Of a stretch of 64,000 nt of DNA, positions 10,629 through 38,929 are shown piece after piece. The notes under the pieces were generated by a model. That model saw nothing but the letters and a program-made list of their open reading frames with translations. It was not told where the DNA came from and searched no databases. This DNA is from Clavaria fumosa (taxonomy: Eukaryota; Basidiomycota; Agaricomycetes; Agaricales; Clavariaceae): contig OX637796.1 of NCBI GenBank assembly GCA_951802425.1, positions 434,001 to 498,000 on the forward strand, written 5' to 3'. The translations under genes were made by a program, and so were the position numbers. The number at the start of each line of letters is the position of its first letter. Position 1 is the first letter of the stretch.

Positions 10629-10727
10629 TTTGATCGATGCCCAAACTTTCCAAAAAAAAATAAAAATTGAAATTTCGGACAAGTCCAAACCTCATACCCG
10701 ATGTTCTTTTAACCTTTTCCTTACACC
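10629..10727 (+). other. Short spacer between B pol and the solo LTR
   Basis: A/T-rich sequence with an A9 run near 10653. With the solo LTR removed it continues at 12221, giving about 165 bp between the pol stop and the stop of the convergent gene. Confidence 0.5.
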
Positions 10728-12215: not shown

Positions 12216-12286
12216 ACACCCTCGCCCTCTAACTCACTTTTCCCACACAACATTCCACCCCATTCAAAAAAGAAAACACAAAACAA

Positions 12287-13756
12287 TTACACTGTAAATG
12301 ACTTGCCAAGAAGGAGCATCCGGAGAAGCTCTGCCCCAGCCCTCACCTGATCCGCCCCCCTCTCCATCATCTGGAGCGCTCTCTCCAGCGCCTCCTTTCC
12401 GGACACCTCTGGTGCCATCTCCCGCTCCTTTCCCTTCTGGCTAGGACCTGCCTCCGCCTTCCTCCTCTTCGCTGACGGCTCCTCCACCAGCTCCACGCTG
12501 TCATCCTCAATTTCATCCTCCTCCTCCTCCGGCGTCGTCTCCTCGCGAACTGGTACCCGCATCGCACCTCGCCTTGGCCTCTTGCCTCCGGTCACCTCCG
12601 TCGCCTTCGGACCTGCTCCGCTCCATTAGCCAACACGGATCCGATACCCCCTTGACTTACCTCCGGTGCCGGACACTGCTGCCTTCTCTGTTTTCACTCC
12701 TGAAACATACTTATCATTTGTCTCAGCACGGAAATAAAAAGAATATTACTTACCTCGCACAGCCGATAAGCTGCATGACACCTTGTACGTCCGGCACCAC
12801 TGGCACGCTATCCCCTCCACTCCGTAACATGTGCGCCACTTCCGGGCGCACTCCTCACATCCTGGATCGTGTTCCTATTCATTAGATCAGACACCTAAAA
12901 CCTTCACACATTTTAATCGACCACTTACCTTATCTCCAGGCTGCCGTGCAGCCCAGGATTTTATATCAGCCCCCGCCCCTGCTCCGCTGCCTTCTGCCTC
13001 GCGATCTCCACCCACACCGGAGTCGCCGTCATCCGCCCACCCACCCGAGGCTCCAACGTGAGGGGCACCTCCACCATCTGCTGGCCCCCCACGGCTGCCG
13101 CTTCAATAACACTGACGGGCGTCACCCCGTCGGTTCCCCACACGGTCCGATGACCGTCCCGATCCTCTACCGTTGCCACCCGCACCTCTCCTGTCTCCAC
13201 CTCCGCAGTCGCCACCTCGTCCGCATGCAGCTCCACGATACTGTAGTTGTTGTCGTCGCTGTTGCTGCTGCCGCCGCCCCGCCATCGTCGTCGCTGTCAC
13301 TGATCACGATGAGGCGCGCCCTCTTCTAGGCAGCTCTCGTCGCCTCCATCCGCCTCTCCTCCGCCTCCGCCTCCGCTGCGGCCCTCCCAGCAGCCGCCCT
13401 CTCCTCATCCGCACGTTCCTGTTTGGCTTCGGCCTCCTCCTGTTCCCTCGTCCGCTCGGCGGTCCATTCGTCCCCACGGAGCCTTCGCGTGACGAGGACT
13501 AGTCCTTCGTCCACCTCCACGTCATCGTCGATTGCGTCAACGTAGCCCACAAGGAAATCATCCTGAAAACTTGTCAGTGCAAAGTGAAAAGAAAGAAAGA
13601 AACACCACGTACCGCATCACCCCCATACATCTGCACCCACTCCGTGTATTCACTGTCCTGCCCCCGCTCCGGCAATTCCTCACCCGGCGCCATGGTCCGT
13701 GCCTCCGTCATCACCTGGGCCACGTTCCAGAAAACGAGAGCGTCGAAGTTTTCCAT
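12287..13756 (-). pseudogene. Family B convergent gene with Zn2Cys6-spaced cysteine cluster
   Basis: A spliced model can be read. Exon 1 is 13756-13613 (48 codons from ATG, acidic). The donor GTACGT and an acceptor lead to exon 2 at 13562-12929. Exon 3 (12874-12754) carries the cysteine cluster C-x2-C-x6-C-x7-C-x2-C-x6-C, exactly the Zn2Cys6 spacing. Exon 4 is 12699-12661. Exon 5 is 12612-12287, with a basic KRPRR patch, an EEEED acidic run and an amphipathic C-terminus. All introns are GT-AG of about 48-54 nt. Exon 2 has a charged, Ala/Glu/Arg-rich coiled-coil stretch, a TAG at 13326-13328 and at least one frameshift, so this copy is probably dead. It lies tail-to-tail with pol and 5' of the 3' LTR, as do related genes in families A and C. 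DNA binding is inferred from spacing only. Confidence 0.65.
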
Positions 13757-13916
13757 TTTTTTTGGATGGTTGATGTGTTGCTGTTATTGGAGAAGACACA
13801 AGTGCATGTTTGGACCTATGTGCACCCACACAACGCGTACTTCACAATCAACAAACGATTATTTGGCCTTGTTTGGTTGCAACCGAGGGCGGTTGCATTT
13901 TCAGCCCCCAGGAGAA
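13757..13916. other. Spacer between the convergent gene and the B 3' LTR
   Basis: About 160 bp that would hold the promoter of the convergent gene (minus strand) and the B polypurine tract. The purine run AGGAGAA directly before the LTR at 13917 is the best tract candidate. No TATA box is obvious for the minus-strand gene. Confidence 0.4.
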
Positions 13917-14809
13917 TGTAAGGATAATATGCGGTTTAGACAACGAAACATCACAGATGCCGACTATCCAGATATTTCGGGATCCAAGGCAATCCGATAA
14001 CAATCCGACACCGTCTGATAACGACTGATACTTATCCAACATCGGACTCTCCGGTCTCCGATTCCCCGTGAAGATCACAGCCCACAGGTCACACACACTG
14101 CCCATGCCTTTCTATTTCATCACTCCAGCATGGTCAGCGCTTGACATACTCACTATTCCATTCCCATTCCTTTATTTCATATACCATGCTGTAAATTTCA
14201 TATTGTGATCCCTTTCAACCATTCAATCATTTAAACGTTTCAAACCCTTTGCAGTACTTTGTCCATTGTTCCTAGTACCCCTTTGCTGTACCAGCCCCAC
14301 TTTCCTTCTTTTATGAGTGGTCCGGACATATATTAGTTATCGGACATTTCATTCCTCCAATCCGCATGATTCCATTATGGATTATGACCCCTACATGACC
14401 TTGTACATGATGTCGCATTGCCTTCTGTAGCTTCCAGACATTTCCATAGAACTGGATATGCTGTACTTAGAAAAATGTATATAAGTACATACCGGACTCT
14501 ATGGGAAAAAAGCTTTTGGACCATCATCATCTTGCTTTGATCTCGAAAAAGCCCACCCTTCGTCGTATCCCTTGATCCGCTGGCCTTCGTCGTCACCGGC
14601 ACCTAGAACTTTCGATCCAGACATCGGACCCTATCGGATCCAACACCGGACACTCCGGACAACGTATACACTCACTTTCTGAACCTTTTACAACTTAACC
14701 TCTATATCCTCCGAAGTTCTGTTTAGTGTCCCAGTCGTGTAAACAAGACCCCCTGAAGAACCAGGCCACAAACACCTAGTTGCAGCCAACACCCATACAG
14801 CCTACTACA
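13917..14809 (+). repeat. Family B 3' LTR (893 bp)
   Basis: Starts TGTAAGGATAATATG and ends CCTACTACA, with TGTA/TACA terminal inversion. The last 483 bp match the left LTR. A TATA box (TATATAAG) lies at 14478-14485. The next base starts family A gag sequence. Confidence 0.85.
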
Positions 14810-15749
14810 CCGGCGCAGATGGAAACCCTTTGTCATGGAATGTCTTATGACTTTCTTCGCAAAGCCAGTAACCTTCCAAGGCAACCACGAGAAGGTTACT
14901 TTCGCGGCTTCTTATCTTACGGATACCGCACAGAGCCACTACACCTCCCTCCTTCAATTCAATCCCGACCACCCGGCCTTACACTCGTGGGAAGGCTTTA
15001 TCCGCAAGTTTGGAGGGATGTTTGGAGTGGTTAATACGCAGATCGAGGCGGACCAGAACCTTCGCTTGTTGCAAATGGCCAAAAACGAGCGCTTCTTGAA
15101 CCACATCATCCACTTCGAATCCAACTGGAATTTGGCCGCCTTGCAGTCAGAGCTCTACCATTCAATGTCCACGTGTATTAAAGAGGCCATGAAAGTCATT
15201 CCGTGACCTACAATGTACCAAGAACTTCGCGATTTGGCCATGCAGATTGACCAGAGGCACTGGGAATATGAGAGTGAGACTCGCTGAACTCAATTCCGCA
15301 CTAACCCTCCTGCTCCCCATCCCCCTGCTCAACAAGGCGGAAATCGCCCTCTTGCTCAACAAGGTGGAAATCGCAACTACCAGACGATGTCACGACCTTA
15401 TCCAGCTGCTGGCAATAATCCTACAATGCCCTGACCAGCTGCAGGGAATCCCACTAATCCACCCTGTCAGCTGAATCCGAATCCGAATCCACCCTACATC
15501 CCCCTCAGCAATGAGGAACGAGAACATTGTCATCAGGGAAATCTTTGTTTGAGATGTGGAAAGCCAGGACATTACAGCGTTGCATGCCCCGATTGATGAT
15601 TAGCCAGACGAGCCGTCTTCACACTAGAGGAAGGAGAAGAAGAGATCCAGGAAGAGTATGAAGTTGAGGAAGAAGTAGAAGAGGATGTGGATGACCCGCA
15701 CAAAGAGTTAAACGAGGAAGCGACTCAGGAGCTTCCGGGGGAACTCTGA
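14810..15749 (+). pseudogene. Family A copy 1 gag fragment
   Basis: Aligns from the KPFVTECLMTFF region of A copy 2 gag to its common C-terminal end (LPGEL stop at 15747-15749). Stops at 15204 and near 15285 are CGA to TGA changes relative to copy 2, and a TGA near 15431 is shared with copy 2. The CCHC knuckle is readable near 15553 (CLRCGKPGHYSVAC). An acidic Glu-rich tail follows. Not functional. Confidence 0.8.
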
Positions 15750-18700
15750 GTTGCGACGACCCAACCCCCATACTCGCATGGGCCACGACTAGTTCCTCTT
15801 CCCCTCAGTTTCCTCGTGACCTTTCTAATACTCCTATTGCTTCCCAGTCCTCCCAGTCCTTCCTCATAAAGACACATATACCAGATTTCAGCTCAATTCC
15901 CTTAAATACTCTCATTGATTGTGGCGCATCAATGAATTTCATCGATTTCACCCTTGCGAACTCCCGCCCAAACCTCTTAATGCCACTTCTGCAACCTCTA
16001 CCGCTTCAATACTTCGACGGAAGTTCCTCCAGCTCCAATATAACCCACTACATCCACGCTAATATGAAATTCCCCGATGATACTATCCAATCCATTAAGT
16101 TCCTCATCACTAAAACTCATCCTCTCACCCCTGTGGTTCTAGGGCTCGATTGGTTGCGAACCTGGAACCCCAGGATCGATTGGACCAACCTCACTTTTAG
16201 TTTCGGACAGACAGCCCACTCCGCGACTATCCCTCTCACCCTTTTGGATGTGAAACCCCTGAGTAAACCCTCCCTTGACCTCGTGAACTCGACACTGGAA
16301 CCCTCTAAACCCCTGCGAGTTCAATTGGTCAAGGCCACCATGCTTTGCCGCTTGGAGCAACAAGGAGAATTTATGGGTCTCCTATACTTCCAACCTGCGA
16401 ACAACCCCCACGATGACGAATCCATACTTGCGAGTTCTGTGACCATTCAACCCCCTCCAAAACCCGAAGAAACAGTACCACATGAGTACCATGACTTTAT
16501 GGATGTATTTTCTGAAGATTTAGCATGGGAATTACCTACGCACCGCGACTACGACCACCGAATCGAACTTGAGGAAGGCAAAACACCTCCTCATGGGAAG
16601 CTGTACAACATGTCAGAAGTGAAGTTAAAGACGTTGAAAGATTATTTGGATGACATGTTGGATAAAGGCTTCATTCGGCTGTCGAAATCCCCCGCAGGTG
16701 CACCAGTACTCTTCGCAAAGAAGAAAGATGGAGGCCTTCGCCTCTGTGTTGATTATCAAGGTCTCAACAAGATTACTCACAAAAACCACTACCCTATCCC
16801 TCGAATCGAGACCCTCGTCAACCAATTGCGCTTTGCCAAAATCTACTCCAAGATTGACCTCTGTGTTGGATATAATAATGTGAGGATAGCTGAAGGAGAC
16901 GAGTGGAAAACTGCGTTCCGCACTCGCTACGGCGCGTTCGAGTATCTTGTCATGCCATTTGGACTCACGAACACACCTGCAACCTTTCAGCACCTCATGA
17001 ACGATATCTTCCACGATTTGGTCGACGTGAACATAGTAGTCTACCTTGACGACATCCTAATCTACTTGGACAACCTCGAACAACATTGTGACCACATCCG
17101 AGAGGTTCTACGATGCCTACGCAAGGCAGACTTACATGCATGACCCGAGAAGTGTGATTTCCACACTGCGACAGTTGAATATCTTGGAGTTATAGTGTCC
17201 CCTGATGGAATTGCCATGGACCCTTTGAAGATACAGGCCATCCTAAGTTGGCCCACACCCACAAAGATCTGTGACCTTCAGAGCTTTTTAGGCTTTACTA
17301 ACTTTTATTGAAGATTCATAGACAACTATTCCAGCATCGTTATTCCACTTACGCAACTCCTCCGCAAGGACATGCCTTGGAAGTGGAGCCCATGATGCCA
17401 AGAAGTCTTCGATATCCTCAAACAAGCCTTTACTGAAGCTCCCGTCCTCTGGCACTATGACCCCGATCACCCCATTACCCTCGAATGCGACACTTCCAAC
17501 TACGTGATAGCAGCCATTCTCTCTCAAACCGATCCCGCAACTAATGAGCTACATCCCATTGCTTTCCATGCACATACAATGATTGCCGCAGAGCTCAACT
17601 ACGACATTTATGACAAAGAGCTACTCACAATACATGATGCCTTCAAGCAATGGAGAGCGTACCTCAAAGGCGCGTGATACCAAATTCAGGTCTTTTCAGA
17701 CCACAATAACTTACATTATTTCACCACCACGAAGCAACTCAGCCGTCGACAAGCCTGCTGGGCAGAGTATCTTTCCAGTTTCAACTATGTAATTCATTAT
17801 TGAGCAGGAAAGTTAGGCGCAAAGCCAGACGCCCTCACGCGACGACCCGACATCTACCCGAAGAAGTCTGACCAACCTGCGACTAATGTGCAAAACAACA
17901 AGGTTGTGATACTGCCAGAACTACTTCGAGCAGCCGTCATTCTGAATGAAGAAGCCTTAATTTCGCGAATTTGACATGCCCCTTGCAACTCCTACTTCTC
18001 AAAGAAATCACAGGGCGCTTCACAAGGTCACGACAAGGCGTTCTCGCTCTCACCTGATGGCTCACTACTACTTCGCATCGGTAAAATATACATCCCCAAC
18101 TACGACTCCCTCTGATTTGATATCCTATGCTCCAACCATGACCACAAACTACGAGGACCTCCAGGTATAAGAAAGACAACCCAGCTAATAAACAGGTTGT
18201 TTTTCTGGCCAGGACTCCGAAAGGACGTAACTGTCTATATCCATGGTTGTCACACCTGCGCAAGGGCAAAACCCGTCTGGCACAAACCCTACGGACTCCT
18301 CAAGCCCTTGCCCATAGGCGAGTGACCTTGGTCTTCGATTTCGATGGACCATATCGAAGCCCTCCCCCTCTCTGCAACCTTTGACTCGATTCTCATTGTC
18401 GTCTGTCGACTTACGAAACAAGCAATCTTTATCTCCACCAACACTACCGACACTGCGAAAGAGTTAGCTCAACATTTCATCACCCACATCTTCTCAAAGC
18501 ATGGGCTACCCGCGGATATAGTGTCGGATAGAGGAAGATTATTTGTTTCTAAGTTTTGGTCTTCATTATGTCAGGCTCTGGATATTACTTCCAATCTCTC
18601 CACAGCCTACCATCCCGAGACTGACGGACAAACGGAATGAGTTAACCAGATCTTAGAGCAATATATACGAATCTATATGAACTACCAGCAGGACGACGGG

Positions 18701-18790
18701 ACTTACCAACTCCTGCTCACCGAGTTCATATACAACAACACCCCCCACAGCGCAACTGGTGTCTCCCCGTTCTTCGCGAACAAAGGATAA
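15746..18790 (+). pseudogene. Family A copy 1 pol fragment
   Basis: Begins in the -1 frame over the gag stop. The protease active site is [10 protein letters not shown] near 15915, the reverse transcriptase has YLDDILIY near 17041, then RNase H and an integrase core with SDRG near 18525 and TDGQTE near 18620. TGA codons occur at 17141, 17309, 17393, 17677, 17802 and others; several are CGA in copy 2. Coding ends at FFANKG near 18786, where a deletion joins it to the minus-strand convergent gene. Confidence 0.85.
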
Positions 18791-19914
18791 CTCACCTTTT
18801 GCACTTCTCCACGCCTCCTCCAACTTGTGTTTTACCGCCACCAGCTCTCCTTCCAACTCCACTTCCCTGTTGGACTTCTCCACCCACAACGTCTTCCTTG
18901 AGGGCTCTGCGACTTGTTGTCTCAACATTGCAAGTTCCCTCGCCATCTCCTCCCTCGTTCCAGACTCTTGTGACAAGGTCGTCGCCTTCGTCCGTACCGT
19001 CGTCATGACCTGCTTCAACTCTTTGACTTCCTCCTCCCTTCCAACCAACGCTCCTTCATCGCCCTTACTTCCAGCCGCCCTTGAAGGATCTTGATTTTCT
19101 CCTCACACTCCATCACCTTCCGAAGTAGCTGCCCCTTTTCTCCTGGAGTTGCCAGAATCCGCGCCTTCTCCGCACGAACTTTCGTGACGTTCGTTAGTCG
19201 CACCGGCACGTCTTCCTCCTCTGTCTCCATTTCTGGCATGTCTGCAACTTGCCTCCTCAATGTTGAAGGGCCCGGCATCGGCAACCGCAACCTTGCCCTC
19301 ACTCATTTTCCGTGCCCTGCCCGCATCAGGGTCTCCGGAATCGGTAGGGTGGGGAGTTTTGCCCCCACTCGACTCGCAACCTTGGGTGCTCCTGTCCCCG
19401 CCATTTCCGGTCCGTCGATGCGCTTCAATGCCTCGTCCACTCACGCATCATCCCACCCAAGCTGGGCCTTGACGCGCCACTGATGAAAATCTTGGACCCA
19501 CAAACATTTTCTGTGGTCCTCCACGCACTGACGACATTTAGCGGCAGCACTGTGCTCGCACTGCCGGCTCTTCACGACGCAATTGTCGCAATCCTGTAAC
19601 ACAACCATTAGAGAGGAATTGGAACGAGAATTATTACTACGCACCTCGCACTCTACCTCGTTCCAGTCCTTGTTCTCTTTTGCTGACCCGATCTTCTTCC
19701 ATAATTTCAGGAAGTTTATGGGCAATGGGTCAGTCCTGCCCATAACGTTCTCCATTGACCCGCTAGGGCCTACGACATCGTCCCTCGCCTTGTTGGGACT
19801 CGTGACTTCTTCTCGAGAACGTGCACATCGCGCCTGTTCGACCTTTTGACGGGCCAGCACGTCTTCCAGGATCCCCAAATTGATCCCGGGCTCTGTTGCG
19901 TCGTAAATCTCCAT
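18653..19914 (-). pseudogene. Family A copy 1 convergent gene, Zn2Cys6-like cluster plus coiled coil
   Basis: Exon 1 runs 19914-19645 (90 codons from ATG). Intron 19644-19594 (GTGCGT...ACAG, 51 nt) joins it in frame to exon 2 at 19593. Exon 2 opens with the cysteine cluster C-x2-C-x6-C-x7-C-x2-C-x6-C (about 19590-19500), spacing identical to that of the family B gene. A linker follows, then long Glu/Lys/Arg-rich coiled-coil sequence with a frameshift near 19040 and TGA stops at 19441 and near 19303. The 3' end is missing through the deletion at 18790. The gene lies between pol and the 3' LTR on the opposite strand. The linker and coiled-coil parts correspond to 30841-30430 in copy 2. Confidence 0.65.
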
Positions 19915-20084
19915 TTCGTGCGCAACCTCGTTTTTGTTTTGCCGGTTTCGGGCTCGTGTTGTTTGACAAAAGGGGAGACCATAGTGGTTGGACTTAGAGA
20001 AAATTTTCGGGTGTCGTGACCTGATCAACAAACATCGTGCTGACTAATCATCATGTGATCTCCACTCTCGCAGGGCTCAAGGCT

Positions 20085-20095
20085 TGAAGGGGGGG
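20085..20095 (+). other. Family A polypurine tract
   Basis: GAAGGGGGGG three bases before the LTR start at 20099. A clean purine run in the correct position for plus-strand priming. Confidence 0.75.
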
Positions 20096-20098
20096 TAA

Positions 20099-21584
20099 TG
20101 TCAGGACCCATTCATTTTTCCTTGCCCAAGCTGACTCCACCCACATCCACGAGCTTCCCGACAACCCTCTACAACCTCGCGAGTTCCTCTACACACTTCC
20201 GGGACCCGCTGTCTCCTTCCGGAAGCCTCTCCAACCTCCCCCATGCTCACACGACACTTGCAACCACCATGCTGTACTTGCGACGCTTCCTACTACTTCA
20301 CCCTACGTGCATACTTCGCCCGGACCCACCAATCCTATGCGTGACACACCGATATGCGTCTACTTCCACCAGCATGTGACTTGCCACACGGCACCCCCAG
20401 TGCTACCACTACCAGCACCAATACATTACCAGCGTTACGACTGTTACTCGCATTACCAGCATTACCCACGTGACTACCTGCCCATAGGTCACCTGCATCA
20501 CTAGTGTCACTCACATGATTGCTCTTATGATCTCGCAACCTTAACACTCAAATGCACCACCAATGGTCAGCTGTATGAACACTTCAAATTATGCTTCCTT
20601 TCTTCTCCCCAATCATCTATAACTACTTTACTTATGATCCGAGAATCCCCCAGTAGTTATAGATATGTATATAATTATTTAACCAGGTCATGACCCATGA
20701 CCGGTCATCTTCATGACCTTACCTATGCTTTCTCTACCCCTCGTGACCTTAGTAGAACACGCGCATGGTCACTCTACGACTAGTTATACTCCGTACTACT
20801 ATAGTCTTGTCGCCTGGCAACCTCTGTACTTTCCCTTTTTCGTTATACTCTCTGTATGCACATATATAAGTCTTGCATGTACTTCTCGTACTGTAGACTT
20901 GATATTAATGCACATTGGTTTAAGCTTGAGGCTATTACGTCCTTTAAGCTTGGAACCACCATGATTGATAGGTCTTGTCTCACTTGGTGACCTCAAGATT
21001 GCCAACACACTCTACTCTATTCTAACTCATCCTCTGCGCTTGTACAACTTGCGCGATCTAAGTATCCTCTCTTATTCATCTTGGTACTGATCTTGGAACC
21101 CTACAGGTTCTCCCGTTGGTTGGCAAAGTCATTGCCTTCAACCGACTTACTTATCAATATCGTCGCAACCTCTCGCGACCTTTCCTACGTCGTCTATTCC
21201 TTTCACCTCATCCTTTTCCTTTCTTATGCTTCATCGGTTGATCTCACGACCTTCTCAGCGTTACCAGTTTCCCCCACTTCGTCTATTTCTTTCTTCACAC
21301 TTTGTCGGTCGACTTCGCGACCCCCTCAGCATTACCCATTTCCTTCTCCTCATCAATTTCTTACTTTATACTTCGTCTACCAACTTCACAACCTTCCCAG
21401 AAACATCTTCTCCCTTTATACTTGTCTTTCTTCACTCTCACATCTTCTCAGATGTCTTCACAACCTTCCGGGACCGAGCATTCTCAACTGTGCTCAACAG
21501 TTAATTGGTCTTAGCGGGTTTCCAGCATAGGTCATCAACAAGTCAATCTCCAGCACTACTATTGAGACGGGACAGGCCTTAACA
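20099..21584 (+). repeat. Family A copy 1, 3' LTR (1486 bp)
   Basis: TGTCAGGACCC...CCTTAACA. Contains the TATA box and, at 20896-20906, GACTTGATATT, the predicted 5' end of the A transcript. It is followed at once by a fragment of the family C LTR. Confidence 0.9.
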
Positions 21585-21993
21585 AATACCTAAGAGAGGA
21601 TCAGAACATAAGTCAAACTCCGAAGTTGATCAGAGTTTGTTGGAGTTGGTCGGAGTTGGTCAGATGACATGGAGAACGTCAAGGACAATGAGGATGAAAG
21701 CTCAGAGATGTTTTTAGGATCAAGAGACATTAATATTCAAACTGAGGAGCAGGGAGTTACAGGTGGAAACTTATACTGCAAGGACAGAGTATAGGAGTAA
21801 TGTGAAACAATGTACATATCAAATTACTAGGAGAGTTTCACCACATGTGCCTGTGCAATTTTCATGGAACAAAGAAACAACAACAAAAGTGACTCCCATG
21901 GGTCAAGGGTATCCTCTCAATGGTAAACAGAATGAGGGGATTGAGGGAGAAGGTTCTAGAACAAAGTCCGAATGATCCAAAGGCCGACGGAGT
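21585..21993 (-). repeat. Family C LTR fragment between two A copies
   Basis: Matches about 39117-39515 of the family C 5' LTR at high identity. The C orientation is minus, so the TATAAG box (21770-21775) and transcript-start motif (21733-21742) are read on the minus strand. A copy 1 ends at its left edge and A copy 2 begins at its right edge, so both A copies probably inserted into the same C LTR. Confidence 0.8.
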
Positions 21994-23480
21994 TGTCACG
22001 ACCCATTCATTTTTCCTATACCCAAGCCGACTCTACCAACATCTACGGCCCTCCCAACGACTCTCTACCACCTCGCGAGCCCCTCTACACGCTTCCGAAA
22101 CCCACTGCCCCCTTCCAGAAGCCTGCCCAACCGTTCCCACGCTCACACGACACTCGTGACCACCATGCTGTACTCGCGACGCTTCCTACTACTTCACCCT
22201 ACGCGCATACTTCGCCCGGACCCTCCAATCCTATGCGCGACACACCGATACGCATCTTGTTCCGCCAGCACGTGACTTGCCGTGCGGCACCCCCGGCGCT
22301 ACCACTACCAGCGCCAATATGTTACCAGTGTTACGACCGTTACTCGTGTTACCAGCATTACCCACATGACTACCCGCCCATAGGTCACCTGCATCACTAG
22401 CGTCACTCACGTGATCGCTCTTATGATCTCGCGACCTTAACACTCAAACGCGCCACCAACGGTCAGCTGTACAGACACTTCAAATTATGCTTCCTTTCTT
22501 CTCCCCAATTGTCTATAACTACTTTACTTATGATCCGAGAATCCCCCAGTAGTTATAGATACATATATAATTATTTAACCAGGTCGCGACCTGTGACTGG
22601 TCATCTTTGCGACCTTACCTATGCATACCTAACCCCTCGCGACCTTAGTAGAACACGCGCCTAGTCACTTTATGACTAAACATACCCTGTACTACTATAG
22701 TCTTGTCGCCTGGCGACCTCTGTACTTTCCCTTTTTTGTTGTACTCTCTGTACGCATGTATATAAGCCTCGCATGTACTTCTCGTACTGTAGACTTGATA
22801 TTGACGCACATTGGTTTAAGCTTGAGGCTATTACACCCTTTGAGCTTGGAACCATCGTGATTGATAGGTCTTGTCTCTCTTGGTGACCACAAGATCGCCA
22901 AGACACACTCTACTCTGTTCTAACTCGCCCTCTGCACTCGTACAACTTGCGCGATCTAAGTATTCTTCATTATTCGTCTTGGTACTGATCTTGGAACCCT
23001 ACAGGTTCACCCGTCAGTTGGCAAAGTCATCGCCTTCACTGACACATTTTTCAACACTGTCGCGACCACCGCGACCCTTCCAACATTGTCTATTTCTTTC
23101 ACCTCGTCTTTTTCCTTCTCTACGCTTCGTCGGTCGGCCTCGTGACCTTCTCAGCGTTATCACTTTCTCCCAACTCATCTATTCTTTTCTTCACGCTTCG
23201 TCGGTCGACTTCGCGACCCTCTCAGCATTACCCATCTCCTTCTCCTCATCAATTCCCTGCTCTACACTTCATCTACCAACTTCGCGACCTTCCCAGCAAT
23301 GTCTCCTCCTTTTATACTTGCCTTTCTTCGCTCTTACATCTTCTCAGACGTCTTCGTGACCTTCCGGGACTGAGCATTCTCGACTGTGCTCAACAGTTGA
23401 TTGGTCTTAGCGAGTTTCCAGGACTGGTCACCAACAAGTCGATTTCCAGCATTACTATCGAGACGGGACAGGCCCTAAAA
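21994..23480 (+). repeat. Family A copy 2, 5' LTR (1487 bp)
   Basis: TGTCACGACCC...CCCTAAAA; the terminal ACA has mutated to AAA. The TATA box TATATAAG is at 22759-22766 and GACTTGATATT at 22792-22802, exactly 33 nt from first T to first G. This is normal TATA-to-start spacing, and it sets the predicted transcript start. Confidence 0.9.
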
Positions 23481-23481
23481 T

Positions 23482-23492
23482 AATATCAAGTC
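23482..23492 (+). other. Family A self-complementary primer binding site
   Basis: AATATCAAGTC starts one base after the LTR and is the exact 11-nt reverse complement of GACTTGATATT at 22792-22802, the predicted 5' end of the element RNA. This is the length and geometry of Tf1/sushi self-priming. No TGG-type tRNA site is present. Confidence 0.75.
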
Positions 23493-23534
23493 TCCCCCTC
23501 GCCCCACCACTCAACACCCAGATAACATCCTATT

Positions 23535-25538
23535 ATGTCTTCCAGTCACACTCCTCCCCAACCAACCACTCACCACTTCCAGACACATACAGGTAGCCGC
23601 GCAATCACTCCAATGATCTTGGAGACTACTCGCGAGCCGCCTACCACCGTTCAAGAACGACCTGCGTCCGTCGTTCAATCACAGCCTGAAGAACCGATCC
23701 AAATCGCACCTAGCCACGCTTCGTCACCGCGAGAAGAGGCCAAATCGCTCGTGGAGCAGCTCAGCTACCCGCACTTTGACCGCCCTCGCCATGGTACCTA
23801 CCAAATTCTCAACAACACTCACCACCAATACGAAGCGGGAACCCTCGACGAAGATTTAGCATACCTCGTAGAGACCACAAACCTCTATGAGCCTTTGGTA
23901 CGATTGATGGATGGATTCTGAGCTAACCCACAGAACTGGTTATACGAGAGTCAGCGTCAGTATCCAGGGACTACCGATCGTGGAGTTCCGACTCCTCCCG
24001 ACCTGGATACCCCCTCGCGACCTCCAAGACAGGTTCAACCCACCAGAGGATCCCGGGATATGGCCCCGCTTTTCCAGGTCACGGCCCAATCTCTTCAGAA
24101 TTTTGCGAATCCTGCCGCGCCCGATGAGCGACCAGCCATTGTCTCCAGGATCCCTAGGTACACCGCCCCTCGCAGCAGCTGGCCTACGTGGATGCAGCCA
24201 GCCACTACTCCGAGTAGGGCGCTCCCTCGCAACCCTATTGGGACTGAAGCAACGCTTCAACCTGCCCCCCACCTCGAAATTCCAGTCAAGCCCTTCTGCA
24301 TTCCACAACCGGAAGCGCGACCAGTACCCCAGATGGAGACGCGACCAGCATCTCGCCCTCCGTCACAGGCTGAAGCCCTGCAGGCCCCTCCGGTCCTCCA
24401 TATGCCTCCACACCCCGCTGCCGCGCTTCGAGATGAGGCCCCTGGTACCCACCACCACCATTATTATTACCAGGCCCCTCCATCTGAAGGACCATCGACC
24501 CGAGATGCCTTCGCTCGAGAATCCAAGCTCGGCACCAGGCGCCCCGAGCCGTTCAATGGTTGCGATCGACGCAAGTGGAAGCCTTTCGTCACGGAATGCT
24601 TAATGACTTTCTTTGCGAAACCGGTAACCTTCCAGGGCGACCACGAGAAGGTTACTTTCGCGGCCTCCTACCTCACGGACACCGCGCAGAGCCACTACAC
24701 TTCCCTCCTTCAATTCAATCCCGATCACCCAGCCCTACACTCTTGGGAAGGGTTTATTTGTGAGTTTGGAGGGATGTTTGGAGTGGTCAACACGCAGATT
24801 GAAGCGGACCAGAACCTTCGCTTGTTGCAAATGGGCGAAAATGAACGTTTCTCGAACCACATTATCCGTTTTGAGTTGTTCGCCTTCGAATCCAACTGGA
24901 ATTCGGCCGCCTTGCAGTCAGAGCTCTACCGCTCGATGTCCACATGTATTAAAGAGGCCATGAAAGTCATTCCACGACCTACGACATATCAGGAACTTCG
25001 CGATTTGGCCATGCAGATTGACCAGAGGCACTGGGAATATGAGAGTGAGACTCGCCGAACTCAATTCTGCACTAACCCTCCTGCTCCCCGTCCCCCTGCT
25101 CAACAAGGTGGAAACCGCCCCTTGGCTCAACAAGGCGGAAATCGCAACTACCAGATGATGTCGCAACCTTACCCAGCTGCTGGCAATAATCCTACGACGC
25201 CATGACCAGCCGCAGGGAATCCTGCGACTTCGCCGCGACCCGCTAATCTGCCCCGTCAGCCGAACCCGAATTCGAATCTGCCCTACGTCCCCCTCAGCGA
25301 TGAGGAACGAGAACGTCGTCGTCAGGGAAATCTTTGCATGAGATGTGGAAAACCTGGACACTACAGCGCTGCTTGCCCCGATCAACGAGTAGCCGGACGA
25401 GCCATCTTCACGCTAGAGGAAGGAGAGGAAGACTTACAGGAAGAGTACGAAGTTGAGGAAGAAGTAGAAGAGGATGTGGATGACCTGCACGAAGAGTTAA
25501 ACGAGGAAGCGATTCAGGAGCTTCCGGGGGAACTCTGA
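23535..25538 (+). pseudogene. Family A copy 2 gag
   Basis: One frame from the ATG at 23535 to TGA at 25536-25538, 667 codons, with in-frame TGA at 23919-23921 (TGT in A copy 3) and 25203-25205 (also TGA in copy 1). The N-terminal third is Pro- and Gln-rich. There is a His/Tyr run near 24453-24470 and a capsid-type domain about 24550-25000 (TFFAKPVTFQGD, YTSLLQFNPDHPALHSWEGF). A Gly/Asn/Gln-rich linker precedes a CCHC knuckle (CMRCGKPGHYSAAC near 25337), and the tail is strongly acidic. It is probably the particle-forming protein of family A and would need both stops removed or read through. Confidence 0.85.
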
Positions 25539-28500
25539 GTTGCGACAATCCAACCCCCATACTCGCGCAGGCCGCGACTAGTTCCTCTTCTCCTCAGTTT
25601 CCTCGCGACCTTTCTAATACTCCCATTGCTTCCCAGTCTTCCCAATCCTTCCTCATAAAGACACAAATACCAGATTTCAGCTCGATTCCCTTAAACACTC
25701 TTGTTGATTGCGGCGCATCAATGAATTTCATCGATTTTACCCTCGCGAACTCCCATCCAAACCTCTTAATGCCACTTCCGCAACCTCTACCGCTTCAATA
25801 CTTCGACGGAAGTTCCTCCAGCTCCAATATAACCCACTACATCCACGCTAATATAAAATTCCCTGATGATACTATCCAATCCATTAAGTTCCTCGTCACT
25901 AAAACTCATCCTCTCACCCCTGTGGTTCTAGGGCTCGATTGGTTGCGAACCTGGAACCCTAGGATCGATTGGACCAACCTCACCTTTAGTTTCGGACAGA
26001 CAGCCCATTCCGCGACTATCCCCCTCACTCTTCTGGACGTGAAACCCCCGAGTAAACCTCCCCCTGACCTCGCGAACTCGGCACCAAAACCCTCTAAACC
26101 CCTGCGAGTTCAATTGGTCAAGGCCACCACGCTTTGCCGCTTGGAGCAACAAGGAGAATTTATAGGTCTCTTATACTTCCAACCTGCGAACAACCCCCAT
26201 GACGACGAATCCATACTCGCGAGTTCTGCGACCACTCAACCCCCTCCGAAACCCAAAGAAACAGTACCGCACGAGTACCACGACTTTATGGACATATTTT
26301 CTGAAGATTTAGCCTGGGAACTACCTCCGCACTGCAACTACGACCACCGAATCGAACTTGAAGAAGGTGAAACACCTCCTCACAGGAAGCTATATAACAT
26401 GTCAGAAGTGGAGTTAAAGACGTTGAAAGATTATTTGGATGACATGTTGGATAAGGGCTTCATTCGGCCATCGAATTCCCCCACAGGTGCACCGGTACTC
26501 TTTGCGAAGAAGAAAGATGGAGGCCTTCGCCTCTGTGTTGATTATCGAGGTCTCAACAAGATCACCCACAAAAATCATTACCCTATTCCCCGAATTGAGA
26601 CCCTCGTCGACCAATTGCGCTCAGCCAAAATCTACTTGAAGATTGACCTCCGTGTTGGGTATAACAACATGAGGATAGCTGAGGGAGACGAGTGGAAAAC
26701 TGCGTTCCGCACTCGCTACGGTGCGTTTGAATATCTTGTCATGCCTTTTGGACTCACGAACGCACCCGCGACCTTTCAGCACCTCATGAACGATATCTTC
26801 CACAATTTGGTCGACGTGAACGTGGTAGTCTACCTTGACGACATCCTAATCTACTCGGACAACCTCGAACAACATCGCGACCACGTCTGAGAGGTCCTAC
26901 GATGTCTACGCAAGGCAGACTTACACGCGCGACCCAAGAAGTGTGATTTCCACACTGCGACGGTCGAATATCTCGGAGTTATAGTGTCCCCTGACAGAAT
27001 TGCCATGGACCCTTCGAAGATACAGGCCATCCTAAGTTGGCCCGTACCCACGAAGATCTGCGACCTTCAAAGCTTTTTAGGCTTTGCTAATTTCTATCGA
27101 AGATTCATAGATAACTATTCCAGCATCATTATTCCACTTATGTGACTCCTCCGCAAAGACACGCCTTGGAAGTGGAGCCCACGATGCCAAGAAGTCTTTG
27201 ATATCCTCAAACAAGCCTTTACCAAAGCTCCTGTCCTCCGGCACTACGACCCTGATCACCCCATTACCCTCGAATGCGATGCTTCCGACTATGCCATAGC
27301 GGCCATTCTTTCCCAAACCAATCCTGCGACTAACGAGCTACGTCCCATCGCTTTCCATGCACATACAATGATCACTGCAGAGCTCAACTACAACATTTAC
27401 GACAAAGAGCTCCTCACGATACACGATGCGTTCAAACAATGGAGAGCGTACCTCGAAGGCGCGCGATACCAAATTCAGGTCTTTTCAGACCACAACAACC
27501 TACGATATTTCACCACCACGAAGCAACTCAGCCGCTGACAAGCCCGCTGGGCAGAGTATCTTTCCAGTTTCGATTATGTAATTCATTATCGAGCAGGAAA
27601 GCTAGGCGCAAAGCCAGATGCCCTCACACGACGACCCAACGTCTACCCGAAGAAGTCCAACCAACCCGCGACTAATGTGCAAAACAACAAGGTCGCGATA
27701 CCACCAGAATTACTTCGAGCAGCCGTCATCCTCAACGAAGAAGCCCTAATTTCGCGAATTCGACATGCCCCTCACGACTCTTACTTCTCAAAGAAATCAC
27801 AGGGCGCTTCACAAGGTCACGACAAGGCGTTCTCACTCTCGCCCGACAGCTCACTACTACTTCGCAACGGTAAAATATACGTTCCTGACCACAACTCTCT
27901 CCGATTCGATGTCCTATGCTCCAACCATGACCACAAACTACGAGGACATCCAGGTATAAGAAAGACAACCCAGCTAATAAACAGGTTGTTTTTTCTGGCC
28001 AGGACTCCGAAAAGACGTAACTGTCTACGTCCGTGGTTGTCACACCTGCGCAAGGGCAAAATCTGTCCAACACAAACCCTACGGACTCCTCAAGCCCTTG
28101 CCCATAGGCGAGCGACCTTGGTCTTCGATTTCGATGGACCATATCGAAGCCCTCCCTCTCTCCGCGACCTTTGACTCAATCCTCGTCATTGTCTGTCGAC
28201 TTACGAAACAAGCGATTTTCATCTCTACCAATACTACCGACACTGCGAAAGAATTAGCCCAGCATTTCGTCACCCATGTCTTCTCAAAGCATGGGCTACC
28301 CGCAGATATAGTGTCGGATAGAGGAAGATTATTCATTTCTAAGTTTTGGTCTTCATTATGTCAGGCTCTGGATATTACTTCCAATCTCTCCACAGCCTAT
28401 CATCCCGAGACTGACGGACAAACCGAACGAGTCAACCAGATCTTGGAGCAATATATACAAATATATACGAACTACCAGCAAGATGACTGGAATTACCAAC

Positions 28501-29198
28501 TCCCACTCGCCGAGTTCATATATAACAACGCCCCCCATAGCACGACTGGTGTCTCCCCGTTCTTCGCGAACAAGGAATACCACCCTAGACTCACGATTTC
28601 TCTCGACGACGTACCCACGCACGAAGCTCACATGGTCGCAACCGATCTCAAGACACTTCACCAGCATCTACGAGACCAACTCAAGGTCGCGAACGAGGCC
28701 TACTCGCGCTTTGCGGACAGGAAGAGAGAGGTTACACTGGATTGGAAAGAAGGAACGAAAGTGTGGTTAGATTTGCGGAATGTGAAGACAAAAAGACCGA
28801 TGAAGAAATTGGATTCGAAAAGAGCCGGACCTTTCCCCATACTTGCGAAAGTTTCGACTCACGCATATCGTCTCCAGTTACCAAAATTGATGTGAGAAAT
28901 TCACGACGTCTTCCACATTTCGTTACTCGAGAAGGTCTACGACAACACTTTCCCCCAGCGACAACAGCAACCCCCGCCCCCTATCGAGGTCGACGGCAAA
29001 CAACACTACGAAGTCGCCGACATACTGGATTCTCGAAGGAGGGGTAGGAAAGTGCTTTACCTCGTACGATGGGAAGGTTACGGACCCGAGGACGACACCT
29101 GGGAACCCATTGAATCACTTTCTGGCTCGAAGGAACTCCTCAAGGACTTCCACGCGACCTACCCGGAAAAACCTCGCGCGACACGCGCAATTCAATAA
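25535..29198 (+). pseudogene. Family A copy 2 pol with C-terminal chromodomain
   Basis: Starts in the -1 frame across the gag stop and ends at TAA 29196-29198. Domains: protease with [10 protein letters not shown] near 25700 (DCG instead of DSG); reverse transcriptase about 26380-26890 with YLDDILIY near 26830; RNase H from ECDASDYA near 27275; integrase zinc finger about 27930-28060; core with SDRG near 28315 and TDGQTERVNQ near 28410; chromodomain about 29005-29170 (YLVRWEGYGPED, TWEP). Defects: TGA at 26888, 27145, 27536 and 28894, and one extra T in the run at about 27987 that copy 1 lacks. At least two of the stops fit CGA to TGA. The product would be a chromovirus-type polyprotein. Confidence 0.88.
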
Positions 29199-29293
29199 TT
29201 TTCCTCGCCTCCTTTTCTTTTTTCTTCACTTTCTCACTTAGGACTTCACAGCAATTTATATATGCAATAAAAATACAACAAGAAAATTTTTAT

Positions 29294-30905
29294 CTACTGG
29301 TCGCAAGCTTTTTCCTTCCCCTTTCGCGACCCTTCTGCTCCTTCCCCACCTTCCACACTCACGACTTTTTCCTTTTCCCCCTTCTCCTCCTCTCCAGCCT
29401 CGGGAGCCTTCAACTCAAAACCCCAATTGTCCACCCTTGGAATATCCAACAGCTCCCTCCTCACGCGACATTGCTCCTGCTCTGCCCATTGCTCTACCCA
29501 CAATGGGAGTTCTTCAGGCGACTTCATCAAAAGGTCTTCATAGGCGAAGAAGACCGTCTCAAGGCCGTGCCGTCCTCGAAAGCGAGCCTCGCGGAGCTCA
29601 CCAACCATACTCCTGCATTGGTCATGCAATTCTAGAAACAAACCATCAGCTTATTGTTAAAGATACGAAACTCGCGACCACTTACCTTGCGACTGCTCCC
29701 TCAACACCGACAACTCCTTTTCCATCCTCTCTACAGTCGCGAACAAACCTACAAAACAAAGATTAGTTTGGTTTATACTCGCGACTATGGAATTCACTTC
29801 GTTCCGATTCCTCAGCCTCCTCCAGCTCGACCTTATGGTCTAGATAAACACAAATAACAGATTAGTCCACCTTCATACCCGCGACCACTAAAACTTACTG
29901 TTCTCCGACTCTTCGGTCTCTTCCAATCTTCGCCGGACGTCCCCCAACTCCACCCTCCAACCTAGATCAACACGAAGATTAATACGCGATCTCACAGAGT
30001 AGAATGATGACTTACCTTCCGCCTCCTTTTTCATCGCTGCAATCACCCTGCTCACCTCCTTGAACTCCTTGCGCATCCCCTCCGCCCCCATTAACAATTC
30101 TATAGACGCGAATGAGTCAAGTTCATACTCGCGACTATTCCACTTACCCTCTTTTTCCTTCCGCAACTTCTCTAACTCCCGGCGCGTGTTTCTCAACTCA
30201 ACTTCTTGGTCTGAATCACACAGAAGTCAATCTACAAGGCAACAATTCGAGTAAAAACTTACCTTGCCACTCCCCATGGAGTGCCTCAAACTCCTTTTCC
30301 GCTCCCTCAGCCCGCGTCGTCAATTCCGCGACTTCCGCGACCTCCTTGCCTTTGCCTATAAAAGTCGTGAGCTCAGTAAAAAACTGCAAGAACTAGGACA
30401 GATTGATATTCACCTTTCTTGCCCCACCGCAACGCCTCCAACTCACGCTTAGCCGCCGCCAATTCTACCTCCAATTCTGTCTCCCGATGTGACTTGTATA
30501 CCCATGCTATCTTCTTCGTGGGTTCCGCGACTTGTTGTCAGAGCGTTGCGAGCTCCCTCTCCAGGTCACCTCTTGGGACTTTTGTCCCTGCGATCTTTTC
30601 CTGTTCTTCCACCACCCCCCTCAACGATGACGGCTTGACGATTCGCCTTTTTGACGGACCAGGCGTTGGCGACCGCGACCTCGCCCTTGTCCGCTTCCCG
30701 CATCCCGCCCGTGTTGGAGTTTCCGGAACCGGTAGGATGGGGAGTTTTCCCCCCACTCGACTTGCGACCTTGGGCGTCGCCACGCCCACCGTTTCCGATC
30801 CCTCGGCGCGTTTCAGCGCCTCGTCGACTCGCGCATCCTAAAACCCTTATACTCCCAAAAGTGAGAGGGACAGGCCAGAACTCACCTTGTAGTGTAGAAA
30901 TGCAG
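29294..30905 (-). pseudogene. Family A copy 2 convergent gene, coiled-coil part
   Basis: Tail-to-tail with pol (stop 29294, pol stop 29198, 95 bp apart). Many short exons of Glu/Lys/Arg-rich heptad-like sequence are separated by GT-AG introns of about 50 nt. One clear intron joins the exon ending near 30889 (donor AAG-GTGAGT) to the exon starting at 30838 (acceptor TAG). From 30838 downward the sequence matches the linker and coiled coil of the copy 1 gene (KVASRVG and KLPILPVPET type motifs near 30760). A TGA near 30538 interrupts it. The N-terminal cysteine-cluster exon is not found, probably lost with the 3' LTR. The last exon (29641-29294) ends in an acidic-basic Lys-rich tail. Confidence 0.55.
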
Positions 30906-32583
30906 CCTTGAGAATGATGCTCCAAAGTCTCATAACCCCAAAATCACATGGAGTGAAGTTGTATTCTGTTTTACAAAGTAGATAGGGCTGTGGAAGAGTG
31001 GTAGAGGGACTCACCTACGAAGTTTCAGGTCAAAGGAGTAAGGGATGAGTGAGGGACAAGCAAATTACTTACACATTTGCACACTGATGTGGCTTGGGCG
31101 ACTTTGAGAGTGCCCCTGATGGTGGTTATGCCCTGATTGGGGTGTTTGACCAATCAAAAGTGTGGGAAGTCGCCCAGGCAGGTGCCATTCCCACGGTGCC
31201 CAGATTAGGCGGTGCTATGTGCCTGCAATACCTAATTTGGGACTACTCATCCATATCAATGACTCACACTTTTGTGACCTTTCGCGACCTTTCTGCTGAC
31301 TCCCTCAGGTCCTCCCTTGAACTGGGAAGTAGACTAGACCCTTGTAGGGTTAGGACAGGGCCAGGTGCGGTATAGTTAATCTATTATTAGTCTTACTGCA
31401 CTTTTCCAAATTGAGATGGAGGAGAGTAAGTAAGGTAAAGACAAGATAAGGTTGCGATTGGGCTGTGGAAACATCTGGAAGGTCGCGGAAATGATCGGGA
31501 GTGACTGCGGGGTGTTTCCCCGCATTTTCCTGGCGTTAGATCACCGATATTGAGTCAGTATGACTCAATATGATTATTTTTAGATAAGCTGGAATGTTCG
31601 AGATGAAATATCTCAACGAGGAGAGAAGATAAAATTATGATCTTACCTGATCTGTAAAGCCACTGAATTATCCTTAATTTAGAGTCCTTAAATGGTATGT
31701 TAGAACTACTATTTCAGGAGCTATGCTGTATTCTTCTAATTGTAGTAGGTACATGAATTTGAGTATAAATAGCTGGCGGAACTTTGCGTTCCAGGCATCA
31801 TTACGTACCCACTCATCGATTGAACCATCCTGCAAAAGAACTAAGCCTGAGTCTGGCTCCCCATGGAGCCAAGGACATATTTAGTAAAACTAAGGACAGG
31901 GTCTAGTTAAACTAAATGTAGTATCTGCTGACTAAGGACTTAGTCTGGTCAAGTGATCTGGGTACCCAAAGGTACCCAGGCTTCGAACAAGCCGCCCTGT
32001 GCCGGCTCCCCTCGGCGCGGTAAGTATTGAGCGAGTTATGAATATTTTAGTATAATGTACAAGGTACTGTACTGTACATAGTACTACTGTGTTCATCAGA
32101 GTAAGTAGTGAATAGCTAGCCAAGTACTGAGAATTAGGCAGTGGTTTATAGAGGTAGAATGGTCTACAAGACCAGGAGAATTTTATGAACTCTCCAGCCT
32201 GTTTCTCCTGTGTCTGGTTAGCTACTTATTCACTGATCTATTTGACCTATCTACATTGATTTGGCTTAAGTGTGCAATACCTATGGAGTGGTCAGTCATT
32301 GAGCCATAGTATCAACCTGTGGAGTGATACCAGGTTGAGGCAGACTATGGAGGTCAATGGCTAAGCCCATGGGATGTTGTGACTTAGGTTACTAACTAAT
32401 AATAATATCTGCCCAAAGCAATGCCTTGCTAGCAGTGTTGGTTTCAATACTGTTAGCAGGAAGGTATGGAACTGGAGGATCTACTAGTCCTGTAGACCAA
32501 CTGCATAAGGAATTGAGGACCTGTCTGAGTCATCCTGACTCTCAGTGACTCATTTCTGACTGCATCCAGTACCAGATCCATAA
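30906..32583. other. Gene-poor stretch, possible old LTR or promoter remnants
   Basis: No convincing coding frame. A TATAAATA box lies near 31764, followed by the hairpin GGCTCC-CCAT-GGAGCC near 31856. GGGTACC-CAAA-GGTACCC follows near 31964. A larger imperfect stem-loop spans about 32300-32370. The layout recalls an LTR but no terminal repeats or partner copy were found in the window. The family C 3' LTR, expected just left of 32584, is not recognisable. Confidence 0.4.
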
Positions 32584-33455
32584 CATGTCCCCACACAACC
32601 TCGTGCAGAAGATGAGGACCCTGAGATCGCAACCCTCACAAAGAAGATCAACGCATTGAGGGAGAAGAAGGCGAGGGAGGAGGAGGAGCGATGGAGGCGG
32701 GAGGAAGAAGAGCAGAAAGTGAGGGAGGTGGCGGATAGGGTGTGGCGGGAGGAGTTGGAGAGGGCGAAGGCGGTGGAGGCGAAGCGGAGGGTGGCGGAGG
32801 TGGCACGGGAGCAAGGGGAAGGGAGGAAGTGGTCTCCGACACCGGAGATGGAGGTGGATCACGTGGAGTGTGCACAATGCCATAGGTTGGGGGTGGCCTG
32901 TGTGTGGCTGAGTGGGGGGCAGGGGATGGCCTGCAACACCTGTGCAGGGGTGAAGCAGAAGTGCAGAGGTGGAGAGGCGGAGCAGCTGGAGTGGAAAAAG
33001 GCGAAGGGGACACGGAGTTGGAGGAGGATAGGGCAGAGATGTGGGTGCCACAGGGTTGGTGGCCAGAGGAGGAGGTGTTGAACTTGGTGTGGGCCATGCA
33101 TAGCATGGTCCTGAGGGGGGTGGTCATGATAGAGGAGTGGAGGAATGAGGCCACAGCAGAGGATCGGAGGATCCTCCACGGGATTTTGGAGAAGTGGGGG
33201 AGGAGGATGGAGGTGGTGGAGAAGGCGGAGGCAGCAGAGATAGCAGAGGAGGTGAGGAAGAAAAAGGCAGAGGTTCTGAGGGCGGAGGTGGAGGACATGG
33301 TGGTGGAGGTGATGGGGAAGGGGAAGGAAAAGGTGAAGGAGGTAGAGGCAGAGAAGGAGGCAGAGGTGGAGGAGGGAGAAGTGGGAGCGGAGTCTGGGCT
33401 GGAGAAGCCTGAAGGAATTTTGCAGGCATCACCCAGCTCACCCCCCTCTGCCTAA
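32584..33455 (+). pseudogene. Family C convergent gene, Zn2Cys6-like cluster plus coiled coil
   Basis: The coding frame is clear from 32584 (stop just upstream, so an unresolved 5' exon and intron are likely). A Glu/Arg coiled coil precedes the cysteine cluster C-x2-C-x6-C-x10-C-x2-C-x6-C at about 32869-32964, within the Zn2Cys6 range. A 1-nt frameshift near 32995 moves coding to the next frame, which continues as Glu/Val/Lys repeats to a Ser/Pro C-terminus (ILQASPSSPPSA) at 33455. The C-terminus is conserved in the second copy at 42032. It is convergent to pol, as in A and B. Function unknown; a DNA-binding or regulatory role is inference. Confidence 0.6.
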
Positions 33456-37740: not shown

Positions 37741-37777
37741 CTTTTTTTGGCATGGAGTCATCTCCATCAGAGGTGAT

Positions 37778-38889: not shown

Positions 38890-38917
38890 TGTTAAATTTG
38901 TATATACGAGGTTTGAA

Positions 38918-38928
38918 GTTTGAATATA
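38918..38928 (-). other. Family C self-complementary primer binding site
   Basis: On the minus strand TATATTCAAAC begins one base after the 5' LTR end (38930). Its complement GTTTGAATAT is found on the minus strand of the C LTR fragment at 21742-21733, exactly 33 nt downstream of that fragment's TATAAG box, the same spacing as family A. The attached LTR itself has two changes there (near 39260). It begins directly where a self-priming site should be. Confidence 0.6.
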
Positions 38929-38929
38929 C

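Follow-up and report, generated by a model that had tools for sequence, protein, structure and literature searches.

A 64,000-nucleotide (nt) stretch of the Clavaria fumosa genome (GenBank assembly GCA_951802425.1, contig OX637796.1, bases 434001-498000, referred to here as contig C3 and, for the whole stretch analysed, as the window) is made up of nested Ty3/gypsy retrotransposons, and several of these carry, on the strand opposite to pol, a gene with six cysteines spaced as in the fungal Zn2Cys6 binuclear zinc cluster. The locus raises the question of whether such a gene belongs to the elements that harbor it and, if it does, what its product might do. The antisense gene was found to be part of the elements, and selection acts on the protein that it encodes, which may serve as a regulator supplied by the element itself.

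A convergent antisense gene in four Ty3/gypsy families

In four element families, A, B, C, and D, the gene sits between pol and the 3′ long terminal repeat (LTR), on the opposite strand and tail-to-tail with pol; the edge of the 3′ LTR beside the gene was observed in the window for A and B, and the arrangement elsewhere in the four families was judged from orientation. Places of the genes and of pol were collected by whole-genome searches (48.8 Mb, 17 contigs) with each antisense gene and each pol. Taking the nearest listed pol of the same family, up to 6 kb away, gene and pol converged, with pol downstream on the opposite strand, at 28 of 28 places in A, 127 of 127 in B, 89 of 91 in C, and 27 of 28 in D, giving 271 of the 274 places with an own-family pol listed nearby when the four families were pooled. 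Random placement, in a shuffle covering A, B, and C, is expected to bring 1.3 (A), 5.4 (B), and 4.6 (C) genes near any pol. The distance comparison used the best 61 of 167 A and 112 of 151 C gene matches and all 140 of the B matches, together with 76 of 151 A, 140 of 151 B, and 150 of 150 C pol matches, the weaker ones being dropped; for D, 39 of 59 gene matches were merged into 34 places and 31 of 150 pol matches were taken as D pol. A first-pass annotation of the window had claimed that the families differ in pol, which was borne out by integrase identities of 47-49% between A and C and mostly 64-68% between C and D.

A six-frame search of the 64 kb for the stop-free pattern C-x2-C-x6-C-x(5-12)-C-x2-C-x(6-9)-C gave exactly three matches, one for each gene in which a cluster had been read before, namely B (12773-12859, minus strand, exon 3), A copy 1 (19504-19590, minus strand), and C (32869-32964, plus strand). 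The spacings given earlier were correct, being C-x2-C-x6-C-x7-C-x2-C-x6-C in A and B and C-x2-C-x6-C-x10-C-x2-C-x6-C in C; the latter spacing also appears in D, across an intron in the spliced reading of locus L091, where the cluster ends in CDQCREKRVGC. No match was found in any of 20 base-shuffled windows, which, with the genome-wide conservation of the cysteines described below, rules out a chance origin.

In family A, copy 1 of the gene (18653-19982, minus strand) is rearranged, with its first ATG, at 19982, out of frame with the cluster exon. It is convergent with pol frames at 15695-18640 (plus strand, from reading frames), and the 3′ LTR (TGTCAGGACC...) lies at 20099-21588 (plus strand, from repeat comparison). 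Copy 2 (29294-30905, minus strand) is a remnant in which the coiled-coil exons are present and the cluster exon is missing; the six-frame search returned no Zn2Cys6-spaced motif between these positions, and its earlier description as a cluster gene did not hold. The pol of copy 2 ends in a chromodomain (28896-29198, plus strand, Pfam PF00385, 1.5e-15, 57.3 bits).

The B gene (12287-13756, minus strand) starts at the ATG at 13756 and has five exons, the window copy being broken by an in-frame stop in exon 2. B pol, with its H2C2 integrase frame at 9213-10628 (plus strand), is convergent with it, and a part of the B 3′ LTR that repeats window bases 1-483 at 97% was placed by repeat comparison at 14327-14809 (plus strand). 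B pol and the B gene are separated by 1.5 kb that is foreign to B, an A-type LTR at 10728-12215 (minus strand) with a target site duplication, ACACC, at 10723-10727 and 12216-12220. Because this LTR is a solo insertion with its own duplication, the original order in B was pol, antisense gene, 3′ LTR. The possibility that the B gene is a piece of the adjoining LTR was rejected on the same 5-bp duplication. B pol was found at 25 places with one common score, 22 of them with frames of 1287 amino acids, and 39 B cluster exons likewise had one common score.

Copy 1 of the C gene (32584-33455, plus strand) is N-terminally truncated, lacks the MSN start, changes frame after the cluster, and is unspliced. 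It is convergent with a C gag-pol in several frames at 33941-38931 (minus strand), which has a chromodomain-like end at 33941-34279. Repeat comparison gave no C LTRs in the window, so that the earlier claim of a tail-to-tail gene on the 3′ LTR side stands for the convergent orientation in A, B, and C and for the LTR edge in A and B, and falls for the LTR edge in C. Copy 2 (41209-42032, plus strand), previously counted as a second carrier of the cluster, is degenerate, having lost the middle of the cluster with cysteines 4 and 5 and retaining a remnant at 41419-41499. All five antisense gene copies in the window are broken.

Family D was found beside a pol 68% identical to that of C. The 2 kb beyond that pol, L091 (G000:C4:914600-916600), contain a convergent gene; its product has a long, charged N-terminal part, and a single intron splits its cluster. 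Seven places among those listed for D pol have open frames of 1241 amino acids. The D cluster exon also has matches of 33-47% identity at 20 further places in the genome (C3:530286 and C1:5157771, for example), several with open frames of 415-439 amino acids; 19 of these 20 have no pol listed within 6 kb, and they are possibly further families or host genes. A is a chromovirus, and C and D probably are too, the C chromodomain scoring 23.7 bits, just under the cut-off of 25.1, and a chromodomain-like stretch having been read by eye in L091. A Pfam search of the B integrase frame found Integrase_H2C2 and no chromodomain in the one window copy searched.

Introns and selection on the encoded protein

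The gene had been described as spliced in all three families of the window, and this was upheld for A and B, where canonical introns were read from the sequence, and not for C. The A intron directly before the cluster exon (GT-AG, 19594-19644, minus strand) has an AG acceptor in 29 of 29 loci and, in every one of these, a GT donor that gives a length of 51 or 54 nt; the donor was located by a GT pattern, so that its count leans to the motif, and the search left the acceptor AG and the intron length free. B has four introns of 48-59 nt, located in the window at 13563-13612 (50 nt in this copy), 12875-12928, 12700-12753, and 12613-12660, all GT-AG on the minus strand, with GT and AG retained in 20 of 20 loci, many of which are near-identical copies of one burst. 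Splicing of C was rejected, since in 21 of the 30 loci fetched a single open frame of 321-375 amino acids begins at MSN and runs across the cluster; the window copy is truncated and frameshifted instead, and the C loci L013-L016 have an altered 3′ end. Efficiently spliced introns would not be expected to survive in a strand that becomes reverse-transcribed genomic RNA. Their retention on the antisense strand would imply that the gene is expressed from its own antisense transcript. Translation of 11 B copies after splicing gave five without stops, all from the recent burst, two with one stop, and four with two or more, the window copy among these four. B appears to be a very recent burst and looks recently active.

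The cysteines are conserved as well. The A count was confined to loci with four or more of them (29 of 30) and thus leans to the motif; 28 of these 29 have the full six, the remaining one has phenylalanine in place of cysteine 4, and the thirtieth, L064, carries a deletion. In C, all 21 full-length frames carry the six without variation, and all eight distinct sequences of B exon 3 keep them, two of these sequences reaching a stop immediately past the cluster. Of two C relatives, L089 (59% identity) keeps all six, and L090 is disrupted past cysteine 5.

Selection on the reading frame was assessed at non-CpG sites counted apart, as old copies decay mainly at CpG. In the C alignment 67-88% of CpG-linked sites are variable, a strong CpG-linked decay such as would be expected if the elements were cytosine-methylated. 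At non-CpG sites, variability at codon position 3 was 2.2-4.5 times that at positions 1 and 2 in A, B, and C. Variable sites at position 3 versus positions 1 and 2 numbered 50 of 221 versus 47 of 466 in C (one-sided Fisher P = 1.5e-5), 20 of 39 versus 18 of 78 in A (P = 0.0023), 11 of 29 versus 5 of 59 in B exon 3 (P = 0.0014), and 15 of 26 versus 15 of 64 in B exon 1 (P = 0.0023), P values that are optimistic because related copies are not independent. The A test used 17 of 26 distinct sequences, those at or below 40% codon identity having been dropped. The excess at position 3 indicates that a protein is under selection. This is consistent with a ratio of nonsynonymous to synonymous change (dN/dS) of 0.17-0.64 in C, with a median of 0.38 over 187 pairs with dS above 0.05, a figure pushed upward by decay after insertion. 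Two of the checks that the first-pass annotation had proposed, conservation of the cysteines and a dN/dS removed from 1, did not refute its reading.

A possible element-encoded regulator and the nature of its cluster

We put at about even the chance that the gene encodes a regulator of transcription or an anti-silencing factor. In this reading, each element is a Ty3/gypsy retrotransposon with an accessory gene read backwards from the 3′ LTR side, its product combining a six-cysteine cluster spaced like the Zn2Cys6 binuclear zinc cluster, and presumably zinc-binding, with basic stretches that are possible nuclear localisation signals and with long, helical, charged, coiled-coil-like parts. The antisense transcript would start at or near the 3′ LTR, and the protein would enter the nucleus as a dimer, bind LTR or leader DNA of its own element, or chromatin, and act in trans, tuning sense transcription or relieving host silencing in the manner of retroviral antisense proteins such as HBZ. 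The introns would persist because their strand is complementary to the genomic RNA, so that they are not spliced from the RNA that is reverse-transcribed. If this is correct, retrotransposons of fungi supply a nuclear regulator of their own that uses the predominant DNA-binding fold of fungal transcription, which would open to study how elements communicate with host promoters and silencing and whether genes of this kind have been taken up as host factors. The keeping of introns by strand in an element copied through RNA is in itself a clean and testable idea.

A control region for such a transcript may be present in A. The leader between the 3′ LTR and the first ATG (19983-20098, minus strand), which probably includes the point where the antisense gene begins, places that ATG 116 bp from the LTR edge. 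It is the most conserved stretch of its region. Among the 40 best of 161 candidate places in the genome, the 39 besides the window copy match it at 93-97%. Comparison of two A subgroups (16 pairs) gave 95% identity in the leader, 77-87% in LTR blocks, and 66-77% in gene blocks; this profile was drawn from the 14 of 30 A loci in which the ATG pattern was present, 10 of which belong to these two subgroups. Such conservation is as expected for a cis-acting control region or antisense promoter. In B and C, no single conservation peak of this type was found at the ATG.

The spacing of the cysteines and the helical and basic stretches nearby are features shared with fungal Zn2Cys6 (Gal4-type) factors (PF00172). 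Zn_clus was the only domain signal recurring in all four families, at sub-cut-off scores of 10-18 bits (15.4 for D, 15.5 and 17.7 for C, 13.1 for A, 10 and 12.2 for B, and 18.2 for the best database relative, P0001), and was the top Pfam match, again below cut-off, for the cluster pieces of A, C, and D. Classical Zn2Cys6 clusters have basic residues between Cys2 and Cys3 and a proline before Cys4. Basic residues at this position are present in A, B, and D and weak in C. The sole match of the D cluster in the PDB was the Zn2Cys6 regulator PPR1 (E = 2.8), and alignment with six Zn2Cys6 sequences by hhalign gave probabilities of 66 for D, 15 for A, 6 for C, and 4.5 for B. The charged coiled-coil sequence ascribed earlier to the product was supported, and AlphaFold, run on six sequences, predicted a confident helix over residues 13-78, ahead of the C cluster.

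Several observations weigh against a zinc-cluster regulator borne by the elements. In the layout, no own-family pol was listed within 6 kb of 33 of 61 gene places in A, 13 of 140 in B, 21 of 112 in C, and 6 of 34 in D, with the pol lists holding about the best 150 of 1,306-1,653 candidates, so that absence from them says little; two C places and one D place have a different orientation to pol; and some genes lie beside a foreign pol (three A genes beside B pol and three beside C pol, two B genes beside A pol and five beside C pol, two C genes beside A pol and two beside B pol), seldom as this is, at 2 to 5 per comparison among 61 A, 140 B, and 112 C genes. In the protein, Zn_clus never reached its gathering cut-off of 21 bits in A, B, C, or D, was only the second match for B, and was absent from the Pfam lists of the longer A frames (window A, L058, and P0014); no proline directly precedes Cys4 in any of the four families; the cluster is internal and not N-terminal as in classical Zn2Cys6 factors; and AlphaFold left the C cluster (residues 96-127) unmodelled, with block means of 35-52. 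The uniformity of the A leader, which also holds a polypurine tract on the plus strand, could come partly from module exchange by recombination, a contribution suggested by identities within one A subgroup of 67-85% in the LTR versus about 91-95% in intron and exons alike. Selection, finally, tells of a use and not of which one.

Membership of the Zn2Cys6 family, as first proposed, was not established, the Pfam score falling below cut-off in every family, and with neither the cut-off reached nor the proline present we do not file the protein as a proven member. Besides these two features and the internal position of the cluster, the proteins differ from Gal4-type factors in being carried by retroelements. 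The six cysteines could instead form another zinc fold, such as two independent knuckles or a treble-clef or ribbon-like structure, with the spacing reached by convergence and DNA binding not required. We consider this somewhat unlikely; it is compatible with any of the roles discussed here, and its likelihood is judged apart from theirs. It would account for the uniformly low Zn_clus scores, for the weak matches to COX17, zinc_ribbon_6, zf_ULT1, and PHD_P300, and for an alignment of A, B, and C/D at the cysteines only. Set against it are the exact C-x2-C-x6-C ... C-x2-C-x6-C in four families, the second half of the D cluster, CDQCREKRVGC, which is near a classical first half, and the hhalign probability of 66 for D, although the values for A, C, and B were low.

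The recurrence of the cluster had been attributed to ancient inheritance or exchange. Ancient inheritance fits C and D, for which hhalign gave a probability of 92 over 45 columns, but with the first cluster half of C paired with the second of D. The other pairs (C-B, A-B, B-D, C-A, and A-D) gave probabilities of 0.7-13, and because only the cysteine skeleton aligns among A, B, and C/D, these alignments would accommodate one origin or several. Database searches returned 13 protein relatives for C, two for A, and four for B, and Pfam domains were found in none of them. All six C-type cysteines are present in P0001-P0004 and all six A-type cysteines in P0014; the cluster lies outside the coverage of P0015 and of P0016-P0019, and the remaining relatives of C are cut short or disrupted in that part. 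A broader proposal is that gypsy elements of fungi, in several chromovirus and non-chromovirus families, hold a Gal4-like zinc-cluster regulator that is either ancient or was acquired more than once, that is transcribed in antisense from the side of the 3′ LTR, and whose introns are shielded by their strand. It would be a transcription factor system encoded by the element and comparable to retroviral HBZ. This proposal is tentative and in our estimate falls short of even odds. One further locus (L001, G000:C8:3224907-3227999) contains three Zn2Cys6-like clusters in the same frame, with starts within 744 bases.

Competing readings and known antisense genes

Roles outside transcription would explain the selection on the protein equally well. 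An accessory factor might act in nuclear import of the preintegration complex, in integration targeting together with the chromodomain, or as an RNA or capsid chaperone, its cluster binding zinc and nucleic acid or protein. The frame selection, the helix, and the basic stretches fit such a factor as well as they fit regulation, A has a clear chromodomain, and roles like those of retroviral accessory proteins have been proposed for plant antisense open reading frames (ORFs) (PMC7264820). A protein acting late needs neither an antisense promoter of its own nor introns, and the spacing of the cluster points to DNA binding; neither argument is decisive, and we regard an accessory factor as unlikely, though the strongest of the competing roles.

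Less probable still is that the functional part is the antisense transcript, with convergent transcription giving double-stranded RNA and small RNAs that limit copy number. The nearly uniform tail-to-tail layout would suit this, and a similar role has been suggested for plant antisense ORFs (PMC7264820). The bias in codon position, the invariant cysteines, and the conserved splice sites argue that the protein is what is selected, and the two functions could coexist. Captured host genes decaying as passengers of no benefit to the element, suggested by the host-like exon-intron structure, the many broken copies including the five in the window, and the 16 genome matches above the Zn_clus cut-off, none of which lies in the window, are disfavored as very improbable by a position and orientation shared across hundreds of places and at least four families, by the median dN/dS near 0.38, and by spliced frames that are intact in five of 11 B copies, all of the recent burst.

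An element-encoded regulator would have precedents in layout. The genes are placed like the class of antisense additional ORFs termed aORF-3R, beyond pol, before the 3′ LTR, and opposite in strand to gag-pol, and by dN/dS and the codon-position test they are conserved like coding genes. The earlier annotation was right that antisense ORFs occur in plant gypsy elements, and a fungal precedent that it had not named also exists in Boty of Botrytis cinerea and Sclerotinia sclerotiorum, with the antisense gene brtn (Zhao et al. 2011, as cited in PMC7264820, PMC8365987, and PMC4227169). As described there, Boty is, like the present elements, a gypsy element of fungi; it has a chromodomain, and its antisense gene likewise occupies the interval from pol to the 3′ LTR. 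It differs in its ascomycete hosts, and the comparison with brtn is one of description and not of sequence. The plant antisense ORFs include gene23 of Grande, RIRE2, TRP28 of Retand, and PvRetro13, the Grande product being nuclear and TRP28 predicted to bind DNA, according to PMC7264820 and PMC11963269. These are plant elements, unlike those studied here, and the Retand ones are non-chromovirus. The words zinc and intron are absent from the accessible portions of PMC7264820 and PMC11963269, which describe no cysteine cluster or introns for the plant antisense ORFs. Outside gypsy elements, HBZ of human T-lymphotropic virus 1 (HTLV-1) is a nuclear protein encoded by an antisense gene with its promoter in the 3′ LTR, as stated in PMC11963269 and PMC10186651. 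The likeness drawn to it is one of description, extending to the antisense gene, the 3′ LTR promoter, and the nuclear protein. HBZ belongs to the basic leucine zipper (bZIP) proteins and is not known to contain a cysteine cluster of this kind. A further analogue of an element-encoded regulator would be the anti-silencing factors found in DNA transposons of plants.

Searches of an open-licence collection of papers that lacks most subscription journals showed no antisense gene with a cysteine cluster in gypsy elements. Antisense genes in gypsy elements are already known from plants and Boty, and the six-cysteine version appears to be new.

Two minor observations concern the window itself. An Rfam scan of its 10-44 kb portion gave no matches, and a tandem repeat with units of about 174 bp lies at 48945-49358, outside the elements studied.

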